Positions 47,493-50,446 of a DNA stretch of 54,933 bases are shown here, piece by piece. Numbering within the stretch: the stretch's first letter is position 1; every line of letters starts with the position of its first letter. Origin of the DNA: Ilumatobacteraceae bacterium (GTDB taxonomy: Bacteria; Actinomycetota; Acidimicrobiia; Acidimicrobiales; Ilumatobacteraceae); assembly GCA_021298435.1 (NCBI GenBank), contig JAJTFJ010000009.1:1-54933 (forward strand). The letters run 5' to 3'. A program made the translations under genes and the position numbers. The notes under the pieces were generated by a model that had not been told where the DNA came from, ran no database searches, and worked only from the letters and a program-made list of their open reading frames with translations.

Positions 47493-48443
47493 TCAGTTCA
47501 TCTCTTCTTGCGAGAGTTTTTCGACGACACGCAACCGGGCAGATGTAGAACGGGGATTTGTGAGTTGCTCTGACTTAGACGCTTCACGAGATACGCGAAC
47601 ACGCTTCACCGTGCGAACAGCAGAGCAACCGCAAGGAAGATTCGGAGGACATGTGCAGTCCCCTGTCTCGGCCGTGCGCATCACTGACTTCACGATGCGA
47701 TCTTCGCCAGAGTGATACGACAGAACTGCAAGACGAGCACCAGGCGCCAATGCTGCGATTGCATCACGCAAAGCAATTGGCAAGATGCTCAGTTCCGAGT
47801 TCACTTCAATACGCACCGCTTGGAATGTGCGCTTTGCAGGATGACCGCCGCGACGCCGTGCAGGCGCAGGAATGGCACTACTCACCACGTCAGACAGATG
47901 TGATGTTGAACGAATAGGTCGTGACGCCACAATCGCTTTAGCAATACGGTCCGCGAAGCGCTCATCGGCGTTGAGGCGCAACATTCGTGCAAGCGCATCG
48001 GCGTCATAGCCATTGACCACGTCGTCAGCACTGAAACTTTGTGAGCGATCCATTCGCATGTCCAACGGAGCATCAAAACGATAAGAGAATCCGCGTTCGG
48101 CAACATCGAACTGGGGCGATGACACGCCGAGGTCGAAAAGGGCACCGGCCAACGAACCAATGCCTTCTTCGGCCACGACGGTGGCAAGCGAATCAAAGCG
48201 GGCACGCCGGAGGGTTGCGCGTCCGCCACAATCAGCTTGAGAAAGAACCGCTGCTGCAGCGGCGAGAGCGACATCATCTTGGTCAATGCCAAGCAAACGA
48301 AGCGCAGAGTGCGCACGAAGAAGTGCGACAGAGTGTCCGGCACCACCCAAAGTGGCATCTAAGAACACACCGTTGTTCATCTCTGCAAAAACATCGACAA
48401 TCTCAGCGAGCATCACCGACTCATGAACGAATGCAGCGTTCAT
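47493..48443 (-). CDS. rsmH: 16S rRNA m4C1402 methyltransferase (RsmH/MraW)
   Basis: A 316-residue SAM-dependent methyltransferase opening MNAAFVHESVMLAEIVDVF, with the SAM loop FLDATLGGAGHSVALL, GIDQDDVALAAA and LFDLGVSSPQFDVAERGFSYRFDAPLDMRMD, then RRRGGHPAKRTFQAVRIEVNSEL. A conserved Cys cluster (CTCPPNLPCGCS) lies near the end. ATG 48443 has AGGTG five bases upstream. The frame stays open to a GTG at 48641 that overlaps the mraZ stop; that 66-codon extension coincides with the structured RNA and does not fit the family start. Confidence 0.95.
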   Translation of the reverse strand: MNAAFVHESVMLAEIVDVFAEMNNGVFLDATLGGAGHSVALLRAHSALRLLGIDQDDVALAAAAAVLSQADCGGRATLRRARFDSLATVVAEEGIGSLAGALFDLGVSSPQFDVAERGFSYRFDAPLDMRMDRSQSFSADDVVNGYDADALARMLRLNADERFADRIAKAIVASRPIRSTSHLSDVVSSAIPAPARRRGGHPAKRTFQAVRIEVNSELSILPIALRDAIAALAPGARLAVLSYHSGEDRIVKSVMRTAETGDCTCPPNLPCGCSAVRTVKRVRVSREASKSEQLTNPRSTSARLRVVEKLSQEEMN

Positions 48444-48469
48444 GACAACACCTGTGCCATTGCTGTGGC

Positions 48470-48601
48470 GACCTGCGGTCCCCGGCAGCTTTCCGGATAG
48501 CGAGTGCAGCCCAGATTTATCCCTGGGACGTGCGCGATGGCAGCGGGCGGAGTTGATGCAAACCACCGTGCCATCCGGAAAACTGCCCGAGACCGCTGGT
48601 C
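48470..48601 (-). ncRNA. Candidate cis-regulatory structured RNA between mraZ and rsmH
   Basis: On the minus-strand RNA the arm 48601-48573 pairs with 48498-48470 over 29 positions with only two mismatches (A-A and G-G) and two G-U pairs. The 74-base loop can form two hairpins: CCCAG with CUGGG (48527-48510), and GGCA/GGUGG with CCGCC/UGCC in the upstream half. The element lies in the only large gap of the division operon (194 bases) and ends 26 bases before the rsmH start. Position and lineage recall the mraW RNA motif reported upstream of mraW (rsmH) in Actinobacteria; I cannot confirm a match to its consensus. Confidence 0.7.
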
Positions 48602-48637
48602 CAAGGCGTGTTGATAGGTCAGTCGAAGCATCAGCGA

Positions 48638-49075
48638 TCACGCGCCCGCTCCAGCGATCTTCTCGGTGCCGGCACTAATGGTGCGCTCATGGCGCTCCGG
48701 CTCCCAGATTTCCACTCGGTCAAAGGAACCGGCGACAACGACTTTGGCGCCCAGGGAGATTCCCGCGTAAGCACGCAACTTTTCGTCAATGTTCACTCGA
48801 CCCTGAGCGTCAATGGTGACTTCCACAGTGTTCGCAGCCAAGGCACGTCGCTGTTCTTGGCTCATCTCGCCAGAACGAACTTTTTCCAACACCTGAGCAA
48901 CATCGCTCTCGAAGGCCTCAGCGGTCATGACGTCAATGCACTTATCGCGTCCAAAAGAGAGGTAACAGCGGGGCTCTAACCGAGGACGGAATGCAGCAGG
49001 CAACGCAAGACGACCCTTGGGGTCTACGACGAGATCTGCTCGCGAATATCTGTCGCAGTCAACGAAGACACCCAT
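48638..49075 (-). CDS. mraZ: MraZ, transcriptional regulator of the dcw cluster
   Basis: A 145-residue protein with two AbrB-like MraZ repeats: DPKGRLALPAAFRP in the first and TIDAQGRVNIDEKLRAYAG in the second (DxxGR motifs). MraZ forms rings that bind direct repeats in its own promoter. The N-terminus MGVFVDCDRYSRADLVV differs from the usual MFxGxYxxxLD. The only in-frame start before the domain is ATG 49075, which lies 52 bases inside the lipoate-ligase-like gene. The usual triple TGGGN boxes were not found upstream; one copy at most. Confidence 0.88.
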   Translation of the reverse strand: MGVFVDCDRYSRADLVVDPKGRLALPAAFRPRLEPRCYLSFGRDKCIDVMTAEAFESDVAQVLEKVRSGEMSQEQRRALAANTVEVTIDAQGRVNIDEKLRAYAGISLGAKVVVAGSFDRVEIWEPERHERTISAGTEKIAGAGA

Positions 49076-49611
49076 GCCTCTGGACTCCACGAGCGATACA
49101 ACACGCATTGCAAACGTGCACCGTCTCGCCCGCGTCGTTGGCTAATGCCCACCAACTTGTGATTACCAACGAAAACTTCGCCGGGAGAAGTACTGGCAAA
49201 ACACACACTGCGGCCATACGTGCCAGCTGTGAATTCACCACGATATGTCTCTGCCTGCGCCCATGGTGACAACGCTTCGCAGAACACATCACCGAGCCAC
49301 AACATCGACGCACTCACATCGTCGACGAATAAAGAATCGTCCCGCGGAATTGTGATGTCAATCCACACCGACTCTGTGGGGTGCACAAAAACCGCTCCAC
49401 CGCCACTGCGTCGACGAACAACCTCGAGACCAAGATCTGCCGCAGCTGCAGCATCAACATCGCCTGTTTGCTGAGTAGAACCCAGGATGATCGCTGGTGC
49501 TTGCACCGTGCACCACCACAATGCGCGCGTCGGCGCCGGATTCATGGCATGAAAATCAAAAGCAGACCCCTGCCAATCGTGGCGTACCCACGGAGATTGG
49601 CGGTCGGTCAT
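49024..49611 (-). CDS. Lipoate/biotin ligase-family (BPL_LplA) protein
   Basis: A 195-residue protein with the cofactor transferase core: VVRRRSGGGAVFVHPTESVWIDI corresponds to the RRxSGGGAVxH motif and VGNHKLVGISQRRGRDGARLQ holds the catalytic Lys. It is shorter than LplA (no C-terminal accessory domain), so it may be an octanoyl/lipoyl transferase or a divergent ligase; substrate uncertain. It lies 18 bases downstream of the HNH gene and overlaps the start of mraZ on the same strand. Confidence 0.82.
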   Translation of the reverse strand: MTDRQSPWVRHDWQGSAFDFHAMNPAPTRALWWCTVQAPAIILGSTQQTGDVDAAAAADLGLEVVRRRSGGGAVFVHPTESVWIDITIPRDDSLFVDDVSASMLWLGDVFCEALSPWAQAETYRGEFTAGTYGRSVCFASTSPGEVFVGNHKLVGISQRRGRDGARLQCVLYRSWSPEAWVSSLTATDIREQISS

Positions 49612-49629: not shown

Positions 49630-50127
49630 TTAACTGGCACGAGCCAAGTACGGCTTCCACTCCTCGGGAATACGAGGAACGGAATACATAATCCAGGACA
49701 GTTCCCGAGGGGCTTGTGGCGGATGCGCCAGCTTCATCCCGGCTTCTTCTGGAGTGCGGTCACGCTTACGAAGATTGCATCCACGACATGCGGCAATGAC
49801 GTTGTCCCATTCATTTTTTCCACCGCGCGAACGAGGCATCACATGATCGATGCTGTCGGCTGCTCCACCGCAGTATCCGCAGATGTGATTATCGCGAGCA
49901 AATACGGCTCGTCGAGACATCGTGGTGCTGCGCTGATACGGAACTTTCACCATGTATCGCAAACGAATGACAACTGGTGACTGAACAGAGAAACGCTCCG
50001 AATGAACTCGGGTGCCGTCATCAGCCACGATCTCTGCTTTATCGAGCAAGACAAGACAAATGGCTCGACGCGCGGAGACGACACTGAGCGGTTCGTACGT
50101 TGCATTGAGTACGAGCGCGCTCCTCAT
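49630..50127 (-). CDS. HNH endonuclease-fold protein
   Basis: A 165-residue protein common in Actinobacteria. The N-terminal half (MRSALVLNATYEPLSVVSARRAICLVLLDKAEIV) is the conserved domain seen in these proteins and the C-terminal half is an HNH domain with a zinc knuckle: CGYCGG, DHVMPRSRGGKNEWDNVIAACRGCN. A nuclease role is possible but no biological function is established. Start ATG 50127 is the conserved one. A single chromosomal copy in an operon with lplA-like and mraZ does not suggest a mobile element. Confidence 0.88.
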   Translation of the reverse strand: MRSALVLNATYEPLSVVSARRAICLVLLDKAEIVADDGTRVHSERFSVQSPVVIRLRYMVKVPYQRSTTMSRRAVFARDNHICGYCGGAADSIDHVMPRSRGGKNEWDNVIAACRGCNLRKRDRTPEEAGMKLAHPPQAPRELSWIMYSVPRIPEEWKPYLARAS

Positions 50128-50179
50128 CACTATCTCGCCCGCAACCGAGAGAAAGAAGAAGACCGTCGTGCGATGAACA

Positions 50180-50446
50180 TCAGCGAGCCTGATTCCATTC
50201 TTTGCACCACGCGAGATAATCGAGCACATCGATGGTGCGAACTTCTACATCCCTCGAACCGTGTTCGCCGCCATATTGGGTGACGAGTCGGAACTCGATG
50301 TAGTCAGCTGGTGGAACTGGCAAAAACGGTGCCCGTCTCCACCAACCATCAGGAGACAGACGAGATAACTGGCGCAATGCAGTGCCCCACAAATGAGGTC
50401 TCACAGCAACGGCGAGAATTGCCGAGGGAGTGACCAGTGACTGCAT
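50180..50446 (-). CDS. Small conserved actinobacterial protein, function unknown
   Basis: An 88-residue protein with a conserved core: DGWWRRAPFLPVPPADYIEFRLVTQYGG and VLDYLAWCKEW. I recognise this pattern from uncharacterised actinobacterial proteins but know no function. ATG 50446 is preferred over TTG 50467 because a TACTGT -10 box (50459-50454) ends 7 bases before it. It precedes the HNH gene by 52 bases. Confidence 0.8.
   Translation of the reverse strand: MQSLVTPSAILAVAVRPHLWGTALRQLSRLSPDGWWRRAPFLPVPPADYIEFRLVTQYGGEHGSRDVEVRTIDVLDYLAWCKEWNQAR

Follow-up and report, generated by a model that had tools for sequence, protein, structure and literature searches.

A structured RNA that occurs across the class Acidimicrobiia lies between mraZ and rsmH and probably acts in cis on the translation of rsmH. 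The window, the whole 54,933-nt stretch of Ilumatobacteraceae contig JAJTFJ010000009.1 analyzed here, carries the element on the minus strand, the same strand as mraZ and rsmH. Our tentative reading is that this leader is an operator controlling rsmH translation and that its likeliest ligand is RsmH itself, recognizing a mimic of its rRNA substrate. Among the matches listed from open-licence PMC papers, none concerned RsmH autoregulation or an acidimicrobial leader RNA.

The mraZ stop codon and the ATG of the conserved rsmH core are separated by a gap of 194 bases, as the original prediction had stated, and both genes are on the minus strand. The predicted folding energy of the minus strand over this region (48437-48641, 205 nt) is -95.9 kcal/mol (z = -4.95), and 0 of 200 shuffles were equally stable; for the plus strand (48444-48660, 217 nt), z = -2.95. 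The fold and its pair list give an outer helix of 30 pairs, three of them G-U, with two 1x1 mismatches, enclosing two hairpins in a predicted three-way junction. The helix had been foreseen with slightly different counts (29 positions, 27 paired, two G-U), and the two small enclosed hairpins that had been described are both present in the fold. Two covariance models were used, R1 built from 30 sequences of the window's genus and R2 from an order-wide alignment, and the parts of the element are as follows.

48470-48604, minus strand: the whole RNA element, 135 nt (R1 match 134.4 bits, R2 match 118.8 bits)
48570-48601, minus strand: 5′ arm of the outer helix (fold, pair list, and helix covariation)
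48470-48501, minus strand: 3′ arm of the outer helix, which in many other genera holds the ribosome binding site and start codon (fold, pair list, and locus comparison)
48535-48568, minus strand: hairpin A, an inner hairpin with a near-invariant loop (alignment A1 columns 37-70, helix 2)
48542-48553, minus strand: loop of hairpin A, ACUCCGCCCGCU, of which the CCGCCCG part matches 16S rRNA around C1402 (alignment and 16S comparison)
48547, minus strand: the C equivalent to C1402 in the ungapped 16S match
48506-48533, minus strand: hairpin B, with the conserved apex GGAnAnAUC (helix 3 covariation and invariant columns of A1)

In the alignments, the most conserved bases are at the hairpin tips rather than around a junction pocket, and conservation peaks at the tip of hairpin A. 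Some distant variants are short, about 107-112 nt, with hairpin B absent or diminished, and in those lineages it is therefore dispensable. Distant class members of this length (L188, L191, L192, and L203-L207) keep the long helix and hairpin A and lack most of hairpin B.

The element is a real, selected, covarying RNA, beyond what chance would produce. Across 30 same-genus sequences (26 of them distinct), 94.6% of cells pair, and sliding the partners by 1-3 columns lowers pairing to 32-47%. Thirteen of the 46 pairs in this set have changes on both sides, with 52 both-side-change cells compared with 15.9 (sd 3.5) in shuffles. The order-wide alignment comprised 50 of 66 loci, after removal of ten same-genus sequences, one near-repeat, and the five weakest (L042, L045, L050, L052, and L054). 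Its pairing is nearly as complete (92.7% of cells), with both-side changes at 35 of 39 pairs and 306 such cells compared with 90.2 (sd 8.8) in shuffles. The original prediction had read selection on RNA structure from the G-U pairs of the stem and had proposed a covariance model from relatives with a check for covarying pairs; that analysis found the covariation, and the selection is borne out by it.

Among the genomes searched, model matches near rsmH are confined to the class Acidimicrobiia. Within the window's genus, rsmH was detected in all but two (G016 and G019) of the genomes comprising 31 relatives and the 1.53-Mb, 76.5% complete source genome (of which the window is contig 32), and the element was present in all 30 same-genus genomes with a detected rsmH. 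R1 recovered it in 23 of 26 loci of other genera and families, finding none in L034, L048, and L056; at E<=10 it matched 125 of 200 family genomes, eight weakly (best E 0.017 to 7.2), and at E<=0.01 it matched 82 of 148 genomes of the order. R2 matched 112 of 148 genomes of the class at E<=0.01. Twenty-two of these matches were weak (E 1.1e-5 to 0.0075), all from genus g250. Each of the seven weak class matches inspected, five of the 22 from g250 and two others, lies directly before rsmH and after mraZ and has the CUCCGCCC loop, L208 reading CUCCUCCGCCC; in six of the seven, a stem start codon stands 13 nt from the element end, in phase with rsmH by spacing. The five g250 matches inspected are genuine. 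In 94 of 94 distinct class loci the gene downstream is rsmH, and for 55 of the 94 the RNA models rather than rsmH had led to the locus. No match was obtained in several near-complete genomes of the class, among them G091, G151, G173, and G140 from the same family and order, and strict search filters may hide the element in some; it is therefore widespread but not universal.

At the level of the phylum, 17 of 296 genomes matched, 15 of them in the class. The two matches outside it (L193 and L194) have neither rsmH nor mraZ in the stretch seen and look like chance hairpins. Antisense matches of R1 and R2 at element sites were likewise set aside, being due to the inverted repeat and scoring far lower than the sense strand (39.6 vs 134.4 bits in the window). 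The record titles of 28 pattern matches name Ilumatobacteraceae, Acidimicrobiaceae, or Actinobacteria/Actinomycetota, and three name Bifidobacterium breve; the bins so titled (L070, L072, and L080) carry an acidimicrobial element, and their titles are probably wrong labels. Some pattern-matched relatives are also titled acIV, and several isolate names point to lakes (Baikal, Erken, and Pavin).

The same intergenic position is occupied elsewhere in the phylum by the mraW RNA (RF01746), which is listed as a candidate RNA for Actinomycetales in PMC2864571 and, according to PMC3890552, was observed in the C. glutamicum transcriptome. The original prediction had noted that the location matches this motif, after mraZ and before rsmH, and it does. 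The proposed search with the mraW model, however, came back empty: RF01746 had no match in the window at the gathering threshold (50 bits), none in 48300-48800 at E<=10, and none in 20 relatives at E<=5. Run with strict filters over 149 phylum genomes, it matched nine at E<=0.001, seven of them over the cut-off and all outside Acidimicrobiia. Conversely, R2 with filters off scored mraW elements at 19.8 bits or less, about equally on both strands. Membership in the mraW family is thus ruled out by the models in both directions. The two RNAs have in common a long helix, a conserved pyrimidine-rich apical loop, and a place as candidate cis-regulators, and the mraW RNA follows mraZ in the eight of nine matched loci that contain rsmH. 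They differ in that the mraW RNA has one terminal hairpin, with loop ACUUCCCC in seven of these eight loci and without CCGCCC, whereas the Acidimicrobiia element has two hairpins and loop ACUCCGCCC. In the eight mraW loci, in-frame rsmH starts lie downstream, or at or beyond the 5′ edge of the RNA, and none lies in the 3′ arm. Of the two options left by the original prediction, a divergent member or a new class, the unmatched models and different loops fit the new class better. The lower stem in the window's genus has GGUCUC/GGGACC-like letters as in mraW; we give these no weight because most other families in alignment A4 do not keep them. ACU and CCC are common to the mraW loop ACUUCCCC of L057-L064 and the element loop ACUCCGCCC, and both RNAs occupy the same genomic position. 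It is possible that the two RNAs have a common ligand, although their models do not match.

Outside the window's genus, the 3′ arm of the helix typically reads like CCGGGGGGCUGCGGAUGAGC, a purine-rich Shine-Dalgarno stretch followed after about six bases by AUG or GUG. Among 78 such loci (one duplicate, L187, removed), a start codon falls within -18 to -9 of the element end in 52, with its first base exactly at -13 in 44. The stem start is in frame and open into rsmH in 32 loci, opens a short ORF that ends at an in-frame rsmH start in nine, and leads elsewhere in 11; the remaining 26 have no stem start. In-frame or coupled stem starts thus number 41 of 78 outside the genus vs 0 of 16 within it. 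The proportion in frame, 32 of 52, exceeds one third with a binomial probability of 2.9e-5, uncorrected for relatedness. For 30 of the 32 in-frame loci, with one duplicate row set aside, predicted unpaired probabilities have a mean of 0.018 over the Shine-Dalgarno stretch and of 0.10 at the start codon. Six loci (L137, L132, L140, L040, L125, and L169) have a stem start that opens a peptide of 6-19 residues whose stop overlaps or abuts the rsmH start (TGATG, GTGA, or ATGA), and leader-peptide coupling is possible in them.

The window's own genus is organized differently: it has largely given up the stem start, and the element is spanned by an open, in-phase frame that shows no constraint on codons. 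The relevant features of the window are the following.

47493-48641, minus strand: rsmH (mraW) reading frame in its longest form (ORF list; relatives in 57 of 61 genomes)
48638-49108, minus strand: mraZ reading frame as listed, whose true start is probably further in (ORF list and relative matches)
48638-48641, minus strand: GTGA, in which the mraZ stop overlaps an in-phase GTG with a frame open to rsmH (29 of 29 same-genus loci with both genes)
48444-48446, minus strand: ATG starting the conserved rsmH core, with AGGTG before it (sequence)

Stem positions -18 to -9 hold no start codon in any of 16 same-genus loci; a GTG in frame stands at -7 in L004 and L016. In the window, 24 nt separate the ATG at 48446 from the helix. 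Besides the GTGA start, which GGAG precedes in the window, each of the 16 loci has an ATG or GTG in frame where the element ends or soon after, so that two starts may be used. From the GTG into rsmH, the frame is open in all 29 same-genus loci with both genes and takes nine different lengths, all multiples of three. Frame +1 has only two stops in 29 same-genus sequences, so that an open frame by itself is little evidence; more telling is that the lengths vary in phase. Over 13 chosen pairs, some sharing sequences, pN/pS is 1.01 in the element (both rates near 0.088), 0.75 in its flanks, and 0.18 in the rsmH core. As for mraZ, most matches from same-genus relatives start at residue 28 and some at residue 11, which puts its true start probably near 49075. 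The listed frame overlaps an upstream minus-strand ORF at 49024-49611, which looks like a lipoate/biotin ligase by its motif RRSGGGAV; a further minus-strand ORF at 49630-50229, with a CGYC...DHVMPRSRGG stretch, is presumably an HNH endonuclease.

The near-invariant loop of hairpin A raises the question of what recognizes it. Among the 94 loci, CUCCGCCC is present in 86, CCGCCCG in 82, and ACUCCGCCCG in 78. The best 10-mer match of loop ACUCCGCCCG in the relatives' 16S genes is ACACCGCCCG, at C1402, with nine of ten positions identical and seven in an exact run. This was the best 16S match in all four genes in which the site was found; in a fifth 16S locus, L160, our script did not find the site, and no 16S gene was found in the source genome itself. 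C1402 is the base that RsmH methylates at N4, as stated in PMC5053481 and PMC13317604. Composition-preserving shuffles of the loop reached one mismatch in 243 of 200000 cases and shared a 7-mer with the site in 8936 of 200000, and the match is therefore suggestive rather than proof. The rest of the conserved loop, CCCCUA before and CUU after, is unlike 16S. In genus g250 the loop is CUCCGCCCA, with the last matching base dropped (five of five loci examined), and in distant lineages it relaxes to CUCCGCCCU, CUCCACCCG, or CUCCGCCCA. We also looked for a partner in trans: the loop complement GCGGGCGGAGT occurs twice in the source genome, once as the element's own antisense.

Together, we propose that the long helix would hold its 3′ arm double-stranded and, in the many genera in which the ribosome binding site and start codon of rsmH lie in that arm, keep them from ribosomes. 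The tip of hairpin A would act as a copy of the 16S sequence around C1402, and because of this likeness the recognizing protein is most likely RsmH itself, a plausible ligand that we put forward with reserve. When in excess over unmethylated 30S subunits, RsmH would bind the loop and the helix would stay closed; otherwise, the helix might be opened by ribosomes arriving from mraZ or initiating directly. So stable a helix is expected to be closed by default and to need an opener, for which the simplest candidate is coupling to the translation of mraZ. Within the window's genus, the start would have shifted downstream, to a position whose first base falls between 1 nt ahead of the element end and about 60 nt past it. 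The leader there would now be an open frame, in phase, that begins at the mraZ stop codon, and the ribosomes under control would be those that cross the helix or abut it. Counting against the proposal are the absence of stem starts at -18 to -9 in the window's genus, the 26 other loci without a stem start and the 11 in which it leads elsewhere, the shortness of the 16S match, the base lost from it in g250, the mraW loop without CCGCCC, the base-independent RNA contacts of the RsmH homologue METTL15 in vitro, and the class genomes in which no match was found. A bolder version, which we consider doubtful, is that RsmH reads and perhaps methylates a decoy of its 16S target (the loop C at 48547) in its own mRNA, thereby sensing, by way of a class-wide mimic of the decoding centre, the supply of unmethylated 30S subunits and setting its own translation and, through it, an early dcw step. 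The direct evidence concerns rsmH only; an effect on all the wall and division genes downstream, which the original prediction had envisaged, is conjectural.

The open frame of the window's genus invites a quite different explanation, that the region is only the coding sequence of an RsmH N-terminal extension and no regulatory RNA. Translation of rsmH from the GTG at 48641 through the region had been named in the original prediction as evidence against a structured RNA, and the frame is indeed open and in phase in the genus, changing length by multiples of three and beginning at a GTGA overlap with GGAG before it; in genus g2 (L032, L118, and L119), the frame across the element is in phase too. 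Against this, the pN/pS of 1.01 contrasts with 0.18 in the rsmH core, and other loci of the order do not hold to one phase: the 47 outside g1 and g2 divide 21/14/9 among phases 0, 1, and 2, with three unassigned, and ten have a stop in or after the element. The element evolves as RNA rather than as codons, and pure protein coding was rejected on these three observations; the covarying pairs also count against it, and as a full explanation an N-terminal extension is exceedingly improbable. A small-molecule riboswitch, responding for example to SAM or SAH, cofactor and product of RsmH, would suit the leader position and the three-way junction, and RsmH does use SAM. Such a switch is nevertheless very unlikely given that the most conserved bases are in the hairpin tips rather than in a junction pocket, that no terminator-like site was found in 48300-49300, and that no Rfam riboswitch matched. 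A promoter was also sought in 48300-49300, and none was found.

Two further alternatives accept the structure and assign it other partners. The 30-pair helix of the window could be an RNA-processing site at which RNase III separates the mraZ and rsmH mRNAs and sets their stability or frees the start site. Long double helices are typical RNase III substrates, but the enzyme needs neither a conserved loop nor hairpin B, and cleavage leaves the start codon fixed at -13 unexplained; we consider this reading unlikely. Its precedent is the occurrence of stable excised RNAs in the E. coli mraZ-rsmH operon, though inside coding regions (PMC6156199). It is possible, if somewhat unlikely, that the element is an rsmH translational operator whose start site is hidden in the same way and whose loop is bound by some other factor, such as a ribosomal protein, an assembly factor, or another RNA-binding protein. 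The same structural and positional evidence applies to such an operator, much of the conserved loop (CCCCUA and CUU) is not 16S-like, and METTL15, a homologue of RsmH, contacts the RNA backbone without base preference in vitro, as described in PMC10828496. What speaks for RsmH over another factor is that the loop matches 16S best at the RsmH site and that the downstream gene is rsmH in every one of the class loci.

Binding by RsmH would place the element among known cases of substrate mimicry. In S15, L20, S4, and other ribosomal-protein leaders, a cis RNA of the gene for an rRNA-binding protein partly resembles the rRNA site of that protein, and here too a covarying RNA structure lies in cis to the gene of an rRNA-binding protein; the gene, however, encodes an rRNA methyltransferase, and its binding is putative. 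KgmB acts at G1405, close to C1402, and in the sgm work of Kojic et al. in 1996, a CCGCCC hexanucleotide shared with 16S rRNA was reportedly implicated. Both sgm and kgmB, which encode 16S rRNA methylases, are negatively autoregulated at translation, as set out in PMC2791848, and imitation of rRNA by ribosomal-protein leaders is likewise a precedent (PMC7247131). The sgm and kgmB genes are resistance genes of antibiotic producers, whereas the Acidimicrobiia element is class-wide, sits on a housekeeping enzyme, and has a covarying structure.

No Rfam 15 family matches the Acidimicrobiia element, a class-wide structured RNA in one of the most conserved operons of bacteria. It suggests a way, open to experiment, in which the amount of an rRNA-modifying enzyme could be kept in step with the supply of ribosomes. 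Should RsmH prove to be the ligand, a nearly universal housekeeping methyltransferase would join the ribosomal proteins, with their substrate-mimic autoregulation, and the resistance methylases, with their translational autoregulation, and a role would also be suggested for the unexplained mraW RNA of Actinomycetales.
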